DNA of 64,000 bases from assembly GCF_003610295.1 (NCBI RefSeq), contig NZ_RAPV01000003.1, positions 248,001 to 312,000 on the forward strand, given 5' to 3'. A model generated the notes under the pieces. It was not told where the DNA came from. It searched no databases and saw only the letters and a program-made list of their open reading frames with translations. The stretch comes from Paraburkholderia sp. BL23I1N1. GTDB lineage: Bacteria > Pseudomonadota > Gammaproteobacteria > Burkholderiales > Burkholderiaceae. The position numbers and the translations under genes were made by a program. This document shows, piece by piece, positions 1,484 to 20,199 of the stretch; within the stretch, counting starts at the first letter, position 1; every line of letters starts with the position of its first letter.

Positions 1484-1783
1484 TTAATAATTATCAGGCT
1501 GCAAATAAGGCTGCAGGAGCGTGACGACCACATCGGCCATTTCGTCGAGCGAACCCGTGCCCGGCAGCGGTTCCCAACGCCCACTATGGCTGCGAAAGGC
1601 GGCGCCATATCGATTGCGGCCGAGCTCGGTGAGGCGCGCCACGACGGTTGGCTCGTCATTATCCAGACGTTTGATCAGCAAGTGGCGCCCGTAGGCTTGC
1701 GTGACGATCTGCTCATGACCGAGCAGGCTGCGCAGTTGACGCTGCAGTTCAGCAGCGTGGTGTTTGGCGGGTACAGCTGGCAT
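1484..1783 (-). CDS. IS630-borne accessory protein, 99 aa, unknown function
   Basis: ATG at 1781-1783 with GAGG about ten bases upstream; TAA at 1484-1486. It begins 13 bp after the transposase stop and ends inside the inverted repeat, so it travels with the element and is probably cotranscribed with it. The product begins MPAVPAKHHAAELQRQLRSL and contains IVTQAYGRHLLIKRLDN, PTVVARLTELGRNRYGAAF and a C-terminal helix. I recognise no domain. The ARLTELGRNRYG segment and lack of membrane segments suggest a small cytoplasmic, possibly nucleic-acid-associated protein. That is inference only. Confidence 0.65.
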   Translation of the reverse strand: MPAVPAKHHAAELQRQLRSLLGHEQIVTQAYGRHLLIKRLDNDEPTVVARLTELGRNRYGAAFRSHSGRWEPLPGTGSLDEMADVVVTLLQPYLQPDNY

Positions 1784-1796
1784 CTGCGTTCCTCGA

Positions 1797-2879
1797 TTAC
1801 GATGCACCGCTTTGCAGCGGATAGCCCCGGAAACTCCATTTGAAGGGGCGTGCGGCCTGATTGTGCTCGCCGACGAACTGCCCGGTGCGCTCGCGCAGGT
1901 GCGCGGTGCTGGTGTGGCTGGCATGGCGCAGCACCCGGCGCGTATAACGGGCAAACCAGAGTTCGATCTGATTGACCCAGCTTGCGTGCAACGGCGTGAA
2001 GTGGAAGTGAAACCGCTTGCCATGCCGCGCATTGAACGCCTGCCAGACGGCCTGCGCGCGATGCGTGTTCAGATTGTCCCAAACCACGTGCACCTGTTTA
2101 TCTGGGTACGCGCCTGCCACGCGTTCCATGAAGGCTACCAGATCGTCCTGGGTGCGCCGCTCGCGGCACTCTGCCAACACCTTTCCGGTATGCACATCGA
2201 GCGCAGCAATCAACGCCTGGGTGCCGTGACGGATATATTCGAATTCACGGCGACGCAGCCGTCCTGGCGCGGGTGCCCGTCCCGGGTGCTTGCGCTCAAT
2301 GGCCTGAATGCCGGTCTTCTCGTCGATGCTGAGCACTACCGCGTTTCGCGGCGCCTTGCGCTACAGCTTGCAAATCACGTTGACCTTCTCGCGAAAGGCC
2401 GGGTCTGGACTGTGCAGCCATTGCCGGACCCGCTGCGGGCGTACGTCGCCGGCCTGCAGAATGCGCTGCACGTGACTGCGGCTGATCTGCCCGACGACGC
2501 CGCGCTCCACGGCACGCGCCGCAATCTCGTCGAGTGTCGGCGTGACCCGTTCCTCAGGCTCCTGCGCTTCACACGCCAGCGCAATCAACTGCAGTCGCGC
2601 TTCGTGCGTGATGCGTGGCGGACGGCCACTGCGCTCGCCCTCGCGAATACCCTGGACACCTTGCCGGGCAATGCGCTTGCGCCACAGGCAGACCGTTTGC
2701 ACCGAGACACCCAGTTCCCGCGCAATCACCGTATTGGAGTGACCCTCGTGGGCCCACAACGCGATACGCGCCCGCATCACATCTCGCTGCATAGCCGTCT
2801 TCCGCTCAATCAGCGATAGCAGTTCCTGTCGTTCTTTATTCGCCAGCTTCACTGGCGTTGCACGGCGGCCTCGGCTCAT
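1797..2879 (-). pseudogene. IS630-family transposase with in-frame amber codon
   Basis: One continuous frame of 361 codons runs from ATG 2879 to TAA 1797 except for TAG at 2361-2363. The first part (172 aa) carries the helix-turn-helix region (VIARELGVSVQTVCLWRKRI) typical of IS630. The second part carries the DDE catalytic core: D in LSIDEKTGIQAIER, D in VVWDNLNTHRA, E in SWVNQIELWF. Family members normally read CxLYxxPP at the break, so TAG replaces a conserved tyrosine codon, a one-base change. With no frame change the lesion is a nonsense mutation, and the copy should be inactive unless suppressed. Confidence 0.88.
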
Positions 2880-2937
2880 CCGGACATGATAACCGGGGCA
2901 GTTTATTATTCAATCTATTTTCGGGATGTTGTACTAG

Positions 2938-3332
2938 CATCGGGACATGTCCAGGTCGCGTGTCGATTAATATCGATTGCGGTTCGGCGGAAGGTGATGG
3001 CATACGCGCTCTCGGGTGCGCGTCCGTCGAGACATGCAGATCAGTGGCCTTGCCATGGTATTGAAGGAGCAAACGAGCCCACGAGCGAATGACGGCTCAT
3101 GGCCGATCCCGGTCCGACGCGCACCATCTGATTACTCCGCCACTGAAAAGTCCACGTCCGTCAGCACTCGACCCGTTGCAGCCGGTCGAGCAGTCTCTGT
3201 TTTAAGGGTAGGTATCGGAGTGGAACGGTCGTTCCGTGCCGTCGCCTGGGGGACAAGTCATCGGCCTCTGCGGACGCTTAGACCCGTGAGTTGGTGAGGC
3301 TGCTTGGCTGCCCGCGCGGGCGGCTTTTGCGC
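2938..3332. other. About 395 bp with no convincing gene
   Basis: This stretch lies between the right end of the IS630 element and a transposase fragment. Short frames exist (for example ATG at about 3089 to TAA at about 3203) but lack ribosome sites and recognisable products. A GC-rich palindrome at 3307-3324 followed by TTTT could be a weak terminator. The rest looks like degraded island DNA. Confidence 0.5.
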
Positions 3333-3435
3333 TCATGCAGCGGCCTCGCGCATCAGTCGTTCGCGCGTCATCCACAGATTGCTTAGAGCGAACAGCGTGT
3401 GCAACTCTGCATGTTCTTCATCAAGCCGCGATAGT
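3333..3435 (-). pseudogene. Fragment of a transposase C-terminus (IS5-like)
   Basis: Read leftward, the last 34 codons before TGA encode RLDEEHAELHTLFALSNLW and MTRERLMREAAA. The LFALSNLWM pattern is the kind seen at the C-terminus of IS5-type transposases. Upstream of about 3436 the frame runs into the end of the TetR gene and no further transposase sequence is visible. The rest of the element is gone. Assignment rests on one short motif. Confidence 0.45.
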
Positions 3436-3441
3436 GCACCT

Positions 3442-4074
3442 TTAGATGCGACCGTGCGCGGCGATGAACATGGCGACGGCCGACCGGCAATAGGATTCGA
3501 TTTCGTTGTCGTCCTCTGCTCTCGCCTCATCGAAGCGTGCGATAAGCAGGAGATCGGATCCTTTGAAAAGCGCGGCAAACAAGCGGGCGGATCGGAGAGC
3601 ATCGGGTACGTTCAGAATCGCTTTCGCGTGCAACTGACGCAACACGGCCTCGATCTGGGCGATGACATGGGCGGGCCCGGCTTCGTAATGGAGCTTGCTC
3701 AACGACTTTTGATTCGTCTTGTCGGCCAAAACCATGGCTTCGACACTGCGGACGTCCGGGCTCAACAGCGTGCGAAGCAGGGATGATCCCACCGCCATGA
3801 GCTGATCTTCGGCCGAACCGTCGACGCCTTCAGAAAGGGCCTGCGGTGCAAACTGATCGCAGCGGGCCACCATGGCCGCGCTGAACAGCGCCTCCTTGTT
3901 CTCGAAGTGCCGATAGATGCTGAGCTTGGATATCTTCGCCCGCTGCGCGACCTTGTCCATGGTCGTCGCTTGAAAACCCAATTCCACAAAGAGTTCGCAG
4001 GCGGCGTCGACGATCGTTTGGCGAAGCGCCTCGTTGGCGGGCCGGCCGCGCCGGCCCTGGCTATTTTCGGTCAC
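3442..4074 (-). CDS. TetR/AcrR-family transcriptional repressor, 210 aa
   Basis: The N-terminal TetR helix-turn-helix is clear: residues about 14-60 include IVDAACELFVELGFQATTMD and KISKLSIYRHFENKEALF. The C-terminal ligand-binding half resembles the AefR-like subgroup. It is divergent from the flavin oxidoreductase at 4334, with a promoter and a palindrome between them, so it most likely represses itself and that gene in response to a small ligand. The inducer cannot be told from sequence. Length is normal for the family and nothing appears broken. Confidence 0.9.
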   Translation of the reverse strand: MTENSQGRRGRPANEALRQTIVDAACELFVELGFQATTMDKVAQRAKISKLSIYRHFENKEALFSAAMVARCDQFAPQALSEGVDGSAEDQLMAVGSSLLRTLLSPDVRSVEAMVLADKTNQKSLSKLHYEAGPAHVIAQIEAVLRQLHAKAILNVPDALRSARLFAALFKGSDLLLIARFDEARAEDDNEIESYCRSAVAMFIAAHGRI

Positions 4075-11783: not shown

Positions 11784-12671
11784 TTATTCCTCCACAGCCG
11801 CGGGCGAATTCACCGAAGCTGTGGGCAAAGCGGCATACATTCCAACGGCGGAAGCAAACTGAGCTCCGAAGGAGGTGCGCCCCACAATGCCGCGCTGGAA
11901 TACTATAGTGCGGGTGTCGTTATCGTGAAATTTCCTTAGACCCCGGACATACTCCCGCTTTTCAACCCAGTCGTACGCTCCCGGAGCGGTCACATATTGC
12001 GTGTAATCCACGTCGACCAGCCCAAGCCTGACCCAGTTTTCCAACATAGCAGTAAAATTCTGAACCTCGACTTCCTTGCCCTCGGCACCCGCAAGAAATT
12101 CCATGTAGTGCGGACGCAGCGACATGTAACCCGATTGGTCATTGTTTTGCAGGCGGATCTCGACTATTGATTGCCGAACCGGACTGGTAAGAAGCGGGCG
12201 AAGCCAACCGACTTCGTTCGGATCAATCTGCTTGATCAGCTCGACGAACGCAGGATGCGCATTTCCGTTTTTGCGCTTATCCATCGCCGTGGACAGCAAG
12301 CTCAGGTACATCGCCTTGAGGTCTGGCTCTTCGTGAGTAAACGCGAGCCCTTGCAGTGCCGGGCCAGCAATCGACGCCTTCGGCTCGACAAGTTCCTCCG
12401 CAGGAATATCAGCAGTCTTCTCTTCCAGATCCTTGGCGAACCGGCTTTCGAAATAGCGCTTCGCCTTTTCGAATCCAAAATTAACGGCAGCAATTGGCAA
12501 CAGCACGTTATTGACCGCCCGTGTCAGCGTCACGGCAGCCTTTCCGAGATTAGAGGCAGCCTCCCTTGCCTGTGGATCGTCCTTGGCAATTTCAATTAAT
12601 TACCCTATAGCACCAACCGCTTTCTTGGCCTCGTCGAGAGCAGAACCGGAATCAGAATCTGAATCAGCCAT
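11784..12671 (-). pseudogene. DUF4393 / Abi-alpha abortive-infection-type protein, with early nonsense codon
   Basis: A continuous frame of 296 codons runs from ATG 12671 to the stop at 11784 but has TAA at codon 24 (12600-12602), where the context AIG-stop-LIEIAKDDPQ suggests a lost lysine codon. The remaining 249 residues from GTG 12533 contain the DUF4393 core: PIAAVNFGFEKAKRYFESRF, then GPALQGLAFTHEEPDLKAMY and AFVELIKQIDPNEVGWLRPL. Abi-alpha proteins are proposed to block phage growth. As a prophage cargo gene this would be a superinfection defence. Translation restarting at GTG 12533 could still make most of the domain, so loss of function is likely but not certain. Confidence 0.72.
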
Positions 12672-12728
12672 TTTTTGCCCCGCAATGTTCGGCACCCCTG
12701 CGCCGCCGACCGTTATTATATTCGCACG

Positions 12729-13833
12729 CTACGCCGCCTTTATTAGCTTAAGTCGCCCCTTCTTAGCTACTTGAGCGGGATCCAGATTCGTGTACCGCTT
12801 CATGTTGCGCCAGTCCTTGTGCCCCGTCACCGCAGCGACCTCAGGTATCTGCCAACCCGCCTCGAACAGGGCACTGGTAGCTTCATGGCGCAGGTCATGG
12901 AAATGCAGATCGATAATGCCCTTGGCATCGCAAGCCTGCTTGAAGTACTTGCTCGCGGTGCCCTTGTCGAACCGGAAAATGTACTCATTCCTGTGCGGCG
13001 CCGTCTTCGGATCGACCTTGCACTTCTCAGCGTATTCCGGCGGCACCGGGTACCTCGGTTGCCGCATGATGACTTCGAACGCGTCGCCAATCAGCGGGAT
13101 CCACTCATTGTTGCCGACCTTCTGCCGGGGATGCTTGCGATCGCGCACCAGCGCGAGGTGATTCTCGGCGTCGATATCGTCCCAACGCAGGTTGAACAGC
13201 TCGCCACGGCGGAACGCGCACTGCATGGCGACGCGCAACAGATCCGGCATCGCCTGTTGACGCTCCGGATGCTCGGCAAACCACGCAAAGATTTTCTCGA
13301 TTTCTTCGGGTGTTGGTCGACGCTCACGCTTGCCGCCGGCTTCGATCAGACGCAGATGGTGAAGCGTGGGACGGGCCGTACCGATCGCATCGGGCAACGT
13401 CAATTCGAGCAATGACCCCATGTGGCGCAGGACGGTGCCGAGCTTCGAGATATCCATGTCGACGGTATAGCCACCGGCGCCGGCTTTCCTACGATCCTGC
13501 GCAAACTTGACGATACGCTGTGTCGTGAGTTTCGCGGCAAAGTCACTTTCGAACGCATCTTCCAGCCGCTTCAGGACGTAGTCCTCGTTTGACTTTTCCT
13601 TCACCGGCCGACCGGATTCTGCACGCGCTTCGCGGTATTTCCTCACGAGCTCGCCCACCTTGACAGTGGCCGAGTCGACCGCATTCTGGCCATTGTCGAT
13701 CTCGACTTCCTTGGCCCGTGCCCAGGCCTCGGCAGCACCTTTCGTTTTGAACGTTTTTGCTATACTCTGCCCTCGCTTGCGGACCTGGGCACGCCAGCGA
13801 CTGCCGACTGCCGACTGGCAGGATTGAAGCCAT
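12729..13833 (-). pseudogene. Phage tyrosine integrase, frameshifted by a 7-bp tandem duplication
   Basis: ATG 13833 begins MASILPVGS. The heptamer CTGCCGA then occurs twice (13801-13807, 13808-13814) and the frame is lost. Removing one copy restores GSRWRAQVRKRGQSIAKTFK and a single 365-residue integrase. The body (309 aa from GTG 13658) has the catalytic residues: R in CAFRRGELFNLRW, HxxR in LHFHDLRHEATSA, the H of VTGHKDW and the final tyrosine in MKRYTNLD. The arm-binding N-terminus is what the frameshift removes. The gene faces away from tRNA-Arg, 217 bp off. The lesion would trap the prophage remnant. Confidence 0.88.
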
Positions 13834-14049: not shown

Positions 14050-14124
14050 CTCCCCGTAGTTCAATGGATAGAACAAGTGCCTCCTAAGCGCTAGATACAG
14101 GTTCGATTCCTGTCGGGGGGACCA
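14050..14124 (+). tRNA. tRNA-Arg (anticodon CCT)
   Basis: The cloverleaf folds: acceptor CTCCCCG with CGGGGGG (one G-U), D arm in TAGTTCAATGGATAGA, anticodon stem-loop with CCT in GCCTCCTAAGC, T arm ACAGG-TTCGATT-CCTGT, then A and an encoded CCA. It is the probable integration target of the prophage to its left. Its natural terminator has been split by the 2-kb element that begins 48 bp after the CCA. The mature tRNA sequence is intact. The exact 5' nucleotide could be 14050 or 14051. Confidence 0.93.
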
Positions 14125-14215
14125 ATCAGCAACATCAGAACACTTCAAAAAAGCCCCGCCAGGCATTGCCTCCAGCCCCTCACTTGGCGTGTTGTTTTGT
14201 GACGGTTGATTCTTT

Positions 14216-14251
14216 ATGATGCCCCGTAGGTCAAGACTTACGGGGCATCAT
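14216..14251 (+). promoter_or_regulatory. 13-bp perfect inverted repeat directly before the element's start codon
   Basis: ATGATGCCCCGTA (14216-14228) and its exact complement (14239-14251) flank a 10-nt loop and end one base before the ATG at 14253. In a long transcript the hairpin would cover the ribosome site. In a transcript starting near 14227, from a possible TTGTTT/TATGAT promoter (14192-14197, 14215-14220), the 5' arm would be missing and the site free. Several IS families use this device against read-through expression. Confidence 0.55.
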
Positions 14252-14252
14252 C

Positions 14253-16086
14253 ATGTCTGAGAAAAATTTTGGGGAGGATGAAGCCGAATCAGCGCCGCCC
14301 TCGAAAGGCCCTCGGATTCCAGCAGAAGTCGACGGGCTTCAGGTCAATCATTGCAAATCCCCTCAGTGTGTCAATTTCGGATTCCCGGCCAGTCCTAATC
14401 GCCCTTATCGTCGAGCCGGAACGCCACCCGTTCCGGGCGACTATATCGTGGCCAAAACCAGCCATGGCACCGTGCCGGCCATTAAGTGTGCTTTTTGCAA
14501 TGAAAAAATCTCCGATTCGAAGCAATCAAGCAATAGCTGAAGAGTATGCCCGCTTGGGGAATCATCTTAACCGGCAAGTTTCAGAGCCCTCGTGCAAAAC
14601 GGAGGGTTGTTCGATGCATAATATTCCCTTGTCGAAATCGGGAAGCCAGTATATAGCGTTCGGAAAAACAGCGGCCGGCACTCAACGCTATCGTTGTTTG
14701 GAATGCAGAAAGACATTTATAGGAAAGCAGAAATCTATTTCTGGACAACGACGTTCAGAAAAGAATCGTGATGTATTTATTTTGGTTGTTAATCGTGTTC
14801 CGTTGTCACGGATTGTCGAGACAACAACCTTGGCGCCCAAGGCGGTATACGACAAAATCGAATTTATTTGCGACCAGTGTCGCTTGTACTCCGGAAGCCG
14901 CGAGGCGAAACTTTTGACGCCGGATTTCGTTCTGCCGAAGATGTACGTTTCAGTCGACCGCCAATATTATCTGGTTAACTGGTTGAAACGAGACGACCGA
15001 AGGGCGGTGCAGCTTAATGCCATTGCGACGGCGGATTTAAAAAGCGGGTACGTTTTCGGAATGCATCTTAATTTTGATGAGACCGTTATCGCAAGCCAGG
15101 TTGAAGAAGCCTCTGCCAAGGCGGGAGACGCCCATTTGGCACCGCCTTTTCGCCGATACGCGCGCCTTTGGCTTGCTCGCGACTACGACGAGGCCCTGAC
15201 AGACGCGCAGCGCCGCGTTTCGGCCTCCTTCTTCACTGCACCGCCCAACTTTAATGACGCCCTGCTGAACGACATTTCCTCGGAATATGCGGATGCAGAC
15301 GCCCGAACCGATATTGAAGAGTCTGATTTTAAAAATAAGGAACTACAACTCCCTAAGAGTGGCATGCAGGTTCGTGAAATGTACACGATGTACGGCCATT
15401 TCCAATTGGTCGCGCGAATGTTAAGAAATGCCCCGAAGGTCCGTGTATTTATGGACCAGGATTCCGGATTCCGTGCTGCCTTTATGTCAGCCTATCGAGA
15501 CAGAGTAAAAGAGCGCACAGCAGATGGGTTTTTTGTCAAGGTTGCGAAAGATGCCACGGCTTATCAAAAGCAACACGCAGTTGTCGAAGCAAAGCGGCAG
15601 CTAATTCTCTTCATGGCCGAAAATGGCATTACAGATGAGTATTCCGCGCAAGTCGAGATGATGAAGCTGAATGTTAGGGCAGCAACTCCGGTTGGGCGAT
15701 GGGGCGATAAATGGGTCAATCATCCTATGCCGATAGCTTCAGAACCCCGCAAGCAAGTCAGTTGGCAAACCAATTTCGGAGATTACGACGAGAACCACGA
15801 AGCGCGCTTGCTTTTGAAAGCTTCATTGCATGCCGTTGACCGGTTCTTTATGATTACCCGCCGTCGGTTGACTAAGGCAGAGCGGCCGGTAGTAAGCGTT
15901 CGAAGGAATCGAGCCATGTGGTACGGATATGCAGCTTATAACCCTTCCTATCTCGCCAGGGAACTTGAAATTTGCCGGGTTTATTTTAATTATTGTGTCG
16001 TTGGAAAAGACAAGAAAACCCCTGCCATGCGCCTTGGACTGGCGTCCCATCCGGTCGACCCACAGGAAATTCTACATTTTTCTTAA
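14253..16086 (+). pseudogene. Double-zinc-ribbon transposase-like protein, frameshifted at an A6 tract
   Basis: Frame 1 from ATG 14253 encodes zinc ribbon one: NHCKSPQCVNFG and IKCAFCNEK. It fails after A6 at 14503-14508. The rest continues in another frame to TAA 16086 with zinc ribbon two (CKTEGCSMH and YRCLECRKTF). A large domain follows, containing MYVSVDRQYYLVNWLKRDDR, FGMHLNFDET and VRVFMDQDSGFRAAFM, whose aspartates are candidates for a DDE-type active site. Deleting one A gives a single 610-aa protein. It is the only gene of the 2-kb element and so presumably its transposase. No named family is certain. The shift may be a mutation or recoding. Confidence 0.7.
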
Positions 16087-16110
16087 ACAAAAGCCCCTGT
16101 TTGTATAAAA

Positions 16111-16138
16111 AAGGACAGGGATTTGGGTCCCTGTCCTT
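16111..16138. terminator. Terminator of the 2-kb element's gene
   Basis: A perfect 11-bp stem, AAGGACAGGGA / TCCCTGTCCTT, with a 6-nt loop lies 24 bp after the transposase stop and is preceded by an A run. It lies inside the right inverted repeat and so belongs to the element. Confidence 0.75.
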
Positions 16139-16385
16139 GAATCACCTCCGCCCAGTAAGGCCCCTAACAACACGCCAAGTGAGGGGCTGGGGCATTGCCT
16201 GCCGGGGCTTTTTTTGTCGCCGTCATTGCCCAAGATTGCTGAACACAGCACGGCCGAAGCCAAATCTCTTCTACCTTGCGCACCAACCTGACTCGCCCGA
16301 TCGTATCGGCGGAATCCATGCGTCTTGCGGAAGCGCATCGACCGCCGATACCTAAAGTATTCCCGGCGAACGCCGAAAATCAGGC

Positions 16386-18915: not shown

Positions 18916-20199
18916 GTGACCCTCGCCGCACCGCTCGATCTGCTCAGACAGGCGCGCGCCCGCTTCACCCAACGCGAAATCGCCGCGCACGTCGGTAAGG
19001 ACATCAAGACGGTGCGCCGCTGGGAAAAAGGCGAAACGCCCTGCCCGTCCATGCTCGAACCGGCCTTGCGCGATCTGCTGCACAGCAGCGGCGCGGCGAA
19101 GGCCGGCGCGGCTACGGGTAGCGCCCAGTTCCGTTTTATCGATCTGTTCGCCGGCATCGGCGGCATTCGCATGGGTTTCGAGGCGCACGGCGGCGACTGC
19201 GTCTTCACAAGCGAGTGGAACGATTTCTCCACCAAGACCTATCGCGAGAACTACCCGGCTGACCGTGAACACGCGCTGATCGGCGACATCGTTTCGTTCC
19301 CCGCCGAAGAAGTGCCGAGCCACGACGTGCTGCTCGGCGGCTTTCCGTGTCAGCCGTTCTCGATCGCCGGCGTCAGCAAGAAGAACGCGCTGGGCCGTCC
19401 ACACGGATTCGAGTGCACGACGCAAGGCACGCTGTTTTTCGACGTCGCGCGTATCATCGCGGCCAAGCGCCCCGCTGCGTTCCTGCTGGAGAACGTGAAG
19501 AATCTGCTTTCGCACGACAAAGGCCGTACCTTCGACGTGATCCTGCAGACCTTGCGCGACGAACTCGGCTACGAAGTGCACTACCGCGTGGTTGACGGCC
19601 AGCATTTCACGCCGCAGCACCGGGAGCGCATCATCATCGTCGGCTTTCGCGGCAAGACGGCGTTCTCCTGGGACGACCTGCGTCTGCCGGAAAGCGGCCC
19701 GCGCCTCGGTTCGATCCTGCATCGCACCGACGGCAGCGAACCGGTGCTGCCGTGGGACCACGATCGCTTCTTCGACCACACCGGCAAACGCGTAGAACCG
19801 AAGTACACGCTCACGCCGAATCTCTGGACCTATCTGCAAAACTACGCGGCGAAGCATCGCGCGGCGGGGAACGGCTTTGGCTTCGGCATGGCTTATCCCG
19901 ACAGCGTCACGCGCACGCTCTCCGCGCGTTATCACAAGGACGGCTCGGAAATTCTGGTCTATCAGGGCGAGCAATTGCGGCCGCGGCGCCTCACGCCGCG
20001 CGAATGCGCAAGACTGATGGGCTTTCCCGACACCTTCAGGATTCCGGTGAGCGACACGCAGGCTTACCGGCAATTCGGCAACAGCGTCGTCATGCCGGTG
20101 ATGCGGGAAGTCGCGCGCATCATGCTGCCGCATGTGCAAACCCTGCTTGCCGAGGAGACGCACAATGGTTCGAAGCAAGCCCTTTCGCTCTATTCCTGA
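18916..20199 (+). CDS. dcm: DNA (cytosine-5) methyltransferase, Dcm type, 427 aa
   Basis: GTG start with AAGGA upstream. An N-terminal helix-turn-helix-like segment ([20 protein letters not shown]) precedes the catalytic domain. Motif I is [20 protein letters not shown], motif IV is the catalytic PCQ in [12 protein letters not shown], motif VI is ENVKN, motif VIII lies around [11 protein letters not shown], and motif X is [10 protein letters not shown]. The vsr gene directly downstream and the CCWGG cluster between them point to CCWGG (CmCWGG) specificity as in E. coli Dcm. No restriction endonuclease is adjacent, so it is likely a solitary methylase. The N-terminal helix-turn-helix may autoregulate transcription. 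Confidence 0.9.

Follow-up and report, generated by a model that had tools for sequence, protein, structure and literature searches.

A frame-broken insertion element downstream of a Paraburkholderia tRNA-Arg gene and a family that probably inserts at the dyad of intrinsic terminators

What kind of element occupies the 2,019-bp unit directly downstream of a tRNA-Arg gene in Paraburkholderia sp. BL23I1N1, and what marked the place at which it entered? The unit lies in a 64,000-nucleotide (nt) stretch of contig NZ_RAPV01000003.1 (positions 248,001 to 312,000), hereafter the window, whose own coordinates are used throughout. It is very probably a single-gene DDE element, frame-broken in this copy, of a family that inserts at the dyad of intrinsic terminators. 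The ends, the 9-10-bp duplications, an empty site and the centring on the terminator hairpin in most copies are shown by the sequences, and the fold of the transposase by a predicted model.

The boundaries of the unit are clear. Its terminal inverted repeats are 25 nt long and 100% complementary, and a 10-bp target duplication, GGCATTGCCT, abuts both ends; a sequence-only reading of this DNA had proposed perfect 25-bp repeats and a 10-bp direct repeat on both sides, and each was borne out by measurement. That reading made no mention of the interrupted terminator around the element, in which two flanking arms of 24 nt (14147-14170 and 16191-16214, 92% complementary) form the two halves of the intrinsic terminator of the tRNA-Arg(CCT) gene. 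The features of the site are as follows.

14050..14124, + strand: tRNA-Arg gene (anticodon CCT), whose terminator is the target (ARAGORN; Rfam tRNA, 61.8 bits)
14147..14171, + strand: left half of the interrupted intrinsic terminator, A-tract and G+C arm (inverted repeat; intact orthologues L085 and L086)
14162..14171, + strand: target duplication, left copy, GGCATTGCCT (read from the sequence)
14172..14196, + strand: left terminal inverted repeat, 25 bp (inverted-repeat search)
16166..16190, - strand: right terminal inverted repeat, 25 bp (inverted-repeat search)
16191..16200, + strand: target duplication, right copy, GGCATTGCCT (read from the sequence)
16191..16215, + strand: right half of the interrupted terminator, G+C arm and T-tract (inverted repeat; joined-site scoring)

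The tRNA region was matched in 55 of 55 genus genomes searched and twelve loci were read downstream of it, a search with the left flank leading to the empty site. In two congeners (L085 from genome G051 and L086 from G017) the terminator stands uninterrupted at the orthologous site downstream of the same tRNA. The target occurs there once and in slightly different letters, GGCATTGCCC in L085 and GGCAATTGCCT in L086, and the outer flanks, compared by eye, resemble those of the window element on both sides. The window unit is therefore a real insertion, and terminator targeting is directly shown for it. The inverted repeats and flanking duplication by which a DDE insertion sequence is recognized are both found here, in addition to the empty site. 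The element has a copy number of one in its own 9.1-Mb genome; relatives with matching ends, also sought, do exist, among them the near twin L024 of Paraburkholderia elongata, whose left end differs by one mismatch in 25.

The sequence-only reading had also described a single large gene for a product of 610 amino acids (aa) with two tandem zinc ribbons. Both ribbons are present, though in different frames of the window copy, and the gene is not intact: the frame is broken between the ribbons, and the figure of 610 aa corresponds to the second frame extended back to 14254.

14253..14540, + strand: transposase gene, first part, a 95-aa open reading frame (ORF) with the N-terminal zinc ribbon 1 and a stop after the frame change (ORF list, alignment)
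14497..16086, + strand: transposase gene, second part, in the next frame and open to 16086, with zinc ribbon 2, a helix-turn-helix (HTH) and the RNase H-like catalytic domain (ORF, profile match, fold of L018)

In IS1, two ORFs are joined by a programmed frameshift. That arrangement was not found here, and a programmed frameshift joining the two ORFs was rejected because the stretch is read in a single frame in 20 of the 20 relatives of alignment A1, all selected as open frames, and in L024, the transposase gene of which is itself broken further on. The window copy looks to have been inserted recently and then broken, or else mis-read at the frame change. The fold was predicted for the intact relative L018, whose transposase is 72% identical to that of the window, and the model shows the RNase H-like transposase fold that the sequence-only reading had proposed to look for. 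Acidic residues at candidate catalytic positions, likewise expected of a DDE insertion sequence, are present as well; the architecture, on this model, is two zinc ribbons, an HTH and an RNase H-like fold.

The same reading suspected a distant relative of IS1 and IS1595, and this kinship is supported, albeit confined to the second zinc ribbon and HTH. Could the element then be a plain IS1 or IS1595 member with an enlarged catalytic domain? In its favour, the second ribbon and HTH match the profile NF050000 (IS1_IS1595_Zn) at 31.4 bits against a cut-off of 28, and the transpos_IS1 profile is reached below its cut-off of 100 (window transposase 24.3 bits, L018 27.6). However, L018, of the intact relatives the closest, stays under the cut-off of the zinc domain at 26.4 bits, as does L039 (21.5), and Pfam gave no DDE match, neither PF03400 (IS1) nor PF12762 (IS1595) being matched. 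Profile alignment by hhalign gave a probability of 0.1 against five short IS1 rows, and of 81% against 13 IS1595 rows or, in the same region, 86% against ten (L132, L136 and L137, apparent wrong frames, being left out). The IS1595 similarity comprises the ribbon and HTH and ends immediately ahead of catalytic residue one, whereas the catalytic part of IS1 shows no similarity at all. IS1 and IS1595 resemble the family in their zinc ribbon and HTH, single DDE gene, terminal repeats and 8-10-bp duplications, but the family differs in its two ribbons, its length of about 600 aa, a catalytic part not alike by profile and its terminator targeting. Plain membership of either family is consequently held to be unlikely. 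The structure nearest to the L018 model is that of the IS256-family ISCth4 (6xg8/6xgx), which differs in sharing 11% identity in the aligned part; of IS256 profiles, the zinc domain model NF048018 alone was touched, under its cut-off. The fold search listed no IS1 or IS1595 structures, which excludes nothing, and in a PDB sequence search zinc-finger proteins matched the ribbon region (best 60 of 129 matches).

Whether the choice of a terminator extends beyond this insertion was assessed at 22 complete sites, with both ends found and duplications of 9-10 bp (two with one mismatch; that of L074 is readable as 9 or 10 bp). Excluded before the count were L018, L032, L033 and L035, each with a single end; L019, which lacks a duplication; the tandem L022, for which the right end was not located; L020, whose flanks are those of L021; the partial L030; and L041 and L043, without ends. 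The dfrG elements L039, L040 and L042, treated below, were left out of the joined-site set. Hairpins were scored around the duplication centre, 12 or more counting as strong, with positions in flanking DNA as controls. This dyad-centred score took the place of minimum-energy ranking, a weak measure by which the joined site stood at or below 5% of controls in 14 of the 21 rankable sites of the 22 (L025 had no control). Within 1.5 nt of the duplication centre a score of at least 12 was reached at 14 of 22 sites, against 0.39% of 21,000 flanking positions; within 20 nt there was a strong hairpin at 16 of 22 sites, against 303 of 6,300 control positions. L034 and L048 lie off centre, by 3.5 and 2.5 nt respectively, and L031 is centred with a score of 11.8, below the threshold. 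For the family as a whole, the support for terminator targeting is strong.

A rival account would be a general preference for palindromes, such as many DDE enzymes have, in which the target need be short and symmetric and terminators are merely the longest palindromes at hand. In its favour, the cuts are symmetric about the dyad. Against it, A and T tracts recur 8-13 bp outside the duplication: across 17 sites the positions 8, 9 and 13 bp beyond it are nearly invariant as A and T, and so is A at 10, where T occurs in 10 of the 17. A and T tracts of at least 4 on both sides were found at 13 of 18 sites and in 3 of 36 tract-bearing hairpins in 138 kb of flanking DNA (Fisher 3e-6), host hairpins of this kind being rare; the 18 sites (those without L021, L037, L076 and L081) were picked as terminator-like, and the figures compare kinds of terminator, not rates. 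Furthermore, three usable IS1595-type control sites score 5.8-6.1, none of them reaching 12, although 17 of the 20 control loci, of IS1/IS1595 type, gave no usable ends. A mere palindrome preference is accordingly regarded as improbable. Since the inner edge of the tracts is loosely spaced, at 5-14 nt from the duplication centre, and the A and T positions are near-fixed, recognition as duplex and as hairpin are both possible.

Less probable again is the absence of any targeting, with insertion at random and survival only of copies that landed harmlessly between genes, where terminators are often found. In favour of this, the sites were taken from assembled genomes and have thus passed through selection, and eight annotated copies lie between annotated genes. 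Nevertheless, selection for harmless places would not bring the duplication centre to within 0.5 nt of the dyad, as at 14 of the 16 strong-hairpin sites against 4 of 303 such controls, nor would it favour tracts on both sides, and we give this account very little credence. Finally, the idea that the terminator halves belong to the element ends, which they abut in many copies, has next to no chance of being correct and was rejected in favour of their being target, because the flanks differ between L013 and L014, which are identical over 2,072 bp but occupy separate terminators in the same genome (one of them downstream of a rho gene), and because the uninterrupted, element-free terminators of L085 and L086 refute it for the window.

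The insertion of elements at landmarks of the genome has precedents. Group IIC introns share the intrinsic-terminator target with this family but are RNA-based retroelements, which insert after the terminator motif and lack terminal repeats or target duplication. Insertion of these introns at intrinsic terminators is described in PMC4424553, whilst TnGBS, ISLre2 and ISKra4 aim upstream of promoters (PMC3942029) and some elements insert at REP palindromes (PMC1525189). These resemble the family in aiming at a regulatory landmark or extragenic palindrome, but their landmarks are promoters or REP sequences and not intrinsic terminators; IS256 insertions are reported as apparently random (PMC3942029). 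No DDE element with an intrinsic-terminator target was found in the available parts of the literature searched (PMC6350997, PMC10969869 and PMC6382973 included, with few subscription papers), and priority is not established.

Judged by its transposase, the family also includes Tn7491, which carries dfrG in staphylococci, enterococci and Listeria: the two proteins are homologous (23.7% identity over 98%, tblastn E 9e-30 to 1e-29) and aligned in A1. Tn7491 was first seen inside Tn6198, and its terminal repeat and 9-bp duplication have been published, as has one copy between the convergent csbB and saeS genes; the words 'terminator' and 'transposase' are both absent from the main text of that account (PMC10763498). 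Other accounts of the dfrG element exist (PMC8544886, PMC8343405). Ten copies were read and the duplication was found by script in seven, of which four (L146, L148, L150 and L151) occupy centred terminators with scores of 15.8-17.8; 0.36% of 12,000 control positions reach 12. L144 and L149 are without a duplication, and L040 has one but lies outside the scored set. Tn7491 is thus like the window family in its homologous transposase, terminal repeats, 9-bp duplication and centred terminators at four of seven sites, and unlike the window element in its Firmicutes branch, its length of 3.3 kb, a small extra ORF and its resistance cargo.

Of 98 near genomes, five, its own among them, hold relatives of the window element. 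A search of 398 genomes across the phylum gave relatives in 29, with several of the matches weak or partial, and the species collection has 15 loci, the closest named transposase relatives being in P. elongata. Members occur in Nitrosomonadales, Thiocapsa, Dechloromonas, a Geobacter metagenome-assembled genome (MAG), Geomobilimonas and a Methylomirabilota MAG, and further ones in Rhizobium, Pontibacillus, Enterococcus and Staphylococcus. Transposase relatives are also present in 124-126 plasmid records (the 124 all below 60% identity) and two phage records, of which 15 of the 126 and one of the two were read; a DNA-level search of plasmids gave no match to the element. Viral contigs hold three loci, one sharing its ends and flanks with L040. 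The ends of the family follow a pattern close to CAAGCCGTTCACTTAAGGTGTTG, as we read them. The 22 elements with both ends span 1.9-6.2 kb, 13 of them exceeding 2.8 kb; the family figures rest on complete elements, and of the weaker relatives a few were examined for ends.

Several members carry cargo, restriction-modification genes included, which the sequence-only reading had not mentioned. In L074 a NotI-type endonuclease is paired with a D12 methylase, in L076 a BsuBI/PstI endonuclease with an Eco57I-type methylase, and in L077 an N6 methylase with the specificity subunit of a type I system; L075 and L027 have N6/N4 methylases with partners of no recognised kind. L028 holds an Xre-RES toxin-antitoxin pair and an ORF resembling a methylase, L026 encodes Fic and DUF6035 proteins, L029 has DUF192, and L023 contains a nested IS21-type pair.

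Some loci are unusual in their organization. L022 is a tandem of two different members, at 1775-3685 and from 3695 onward, in which the same 9-bp repeat, GGCGAATCT, precedes and separates both, as if the second had used the junction of the first. L019 (147-2146) lacks a target duplication and its flanks look like halves of different terminators, a pattern as expected from recombination between two copies. In the Firmicutes branch a small ORF of 80-98 aa directly precedes the transposase (L038:2380-2622, L039:1314-1610), that of L038 having no Pfam match, and L030, L041, L050 and L059-L064 are partial or split relatives, of which the first three were searched for ends. A relative of 489-515 aa is found in one genus, probably Vibrio (L078:4794-6338, L082:3972-5438, L083:3919-5409), adjoining in all three loci read a gene that we take to be deoD-like. 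In this protein D401 is replaced by P and D235 is not conserved, so that it has the appearance of a transposase turned to a host function by domestication. The genus is named as probably Vibrio because, in the plasmid collection, Vibrio records also match the window transposase, at 21-22%.

How might such an element choose its target and withstand the consequences? In the mechanism we propose, the two-fold axis of the transpososome would be aligned on the dyad of the target, and staggered cuts 9-10 bp apart would fall on either side of the loop, guided by the symmetric A-tract, G+C palindrome and T-tract, whether these are read in the duplex or in a hairpin extruded from it. As insertion would destroy a terminator beside active genes, the element may then need to protect itself, for which its two ends offer candidate devices.

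14192..14220, + strand: predicted transposase promoter, -35 TTGTTT (14192-14197), 17-nt spacer, -10 TATGAT (14215-14220) (consensus match only)
14216..14251, + strand: leader hairpin, 16-bp stem, the 5' arm overlapping the -10 box and the 3' arm ending beside the start codon (inverted repeat; fold z -3.76)
16107..16138, - strand: terminator-like hairpin facing inward from the right end, stem then T6 (hairpin search, sequence)

With its -35 box in the inner end of the repeat, this promoter would start transcripts inside the 5' arm of the leader hairpin; such transcripts would lack much of that arm, so that read-through transcripts alone would form the full hairpin, which would hide the ribosome-binding stretch or stop transcription, and the inward terminator would guard the right end. 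A comparable device is known from IS10 and IS50. Of 20 left ends, 19 have an initial 110 nt that folds more stably than its shuffled versions (z -2.3 to -6.5; L076, -1.4), with the hairpin mostly at about +45 to +80 and its 3' arm often G-rich directly before the assigned start codon. A -35-like box is found at +21, inside the conserved repeat, in 19 of 26 left ends (TTG in 18 of them), a -10 box with five or six matches in 14 of the 26, against 5% of shuffled leaders, and a predicted start inside the 5' arm or loop in 22 (L013 and L014 being the same element). From these consensus matches and foldings, we infer leader control of the transposase as a proposal. The inward hairpin is present in the window, L013, L031, L034 and L036.

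A number of observations weigh against this overall interpretation. The window copy itself is probably inactive, and the catalytic residues are uncertain, the third candidate (D529 in L018) being N in both Firmicutes rows, with E543 as an alternative. The joined-site pattern was matched in none of 59 relatives at up to three mismatches, a set to which G051, the source of L085, does not belong. Three of the 22 sites (L021, L037 and L081) have no terminator, that of L076 has a small hairpin without tracts, L036, though centred, is weak with a score of 10.1, and three of the seven Tn7491 sites are weak as well (L039, 9.0; L145, 5.8; L147, 4.3). All the sites come from surviving genomes and are hence filtered by selection. 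With regard to the leader, four of the 26 predicted starts fall outside the arm, some -10 boxes among the other 22 are poor (2/6 in L026 and L036), and the inward hairpin was found in five of the seven transposase-only elements tested, L021 and L037 being without it.

Two further features of the window lie outside the element. On the opposite side of the tRNA-Arg gene (11784-13658) are genes for a phage-type integrase and for an abortive-infection protein, Abi_alpha; an integrative element may therefore use this tRNA as its attachment site too. At 18916-20199 lies a C5 cytosine DNA methylase, the N-terminal HTH-like stretch of which scores below the Pfam cut-off.

Taken broadly, it is somewhat more probable than the opposite that these elements form a widespread DDE family, ungrouped before, of Proteobacteria, the Geobacter group, a Methylomirabilota MAG and Bacillota, which reads terminators as DNA structures, inserts at their dyad, offsets the damage by a leader hairpin and an inward terminator, moves genes for restriction-modification, toxin-antitoxin systems and resistance from terminator to terminator, and in a single genus of Gammaproteobacteria, probably Vibrio, has become a domesticated gene beside a deoD-like one. 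The window element itself is jumping DNA of a little-described family that very probably enters the middle of terminator hairpins. As terminators are near-universal in bacteria and lie outside coding sequence, they would provide a portable safe harbour without a fixed sequence; such targeting may therefore let members settle harmlessly in many genomes, and some relatives carry restriction systems or drug resistance. If true, this would be a testable case of target choice by shape and not by sequence, would suggest a reason for the ease with which Tn7491 becomes established in plasmids, phages and SCCmec, and would mean that restriction-modification systems can travel in elements with a single transposase.
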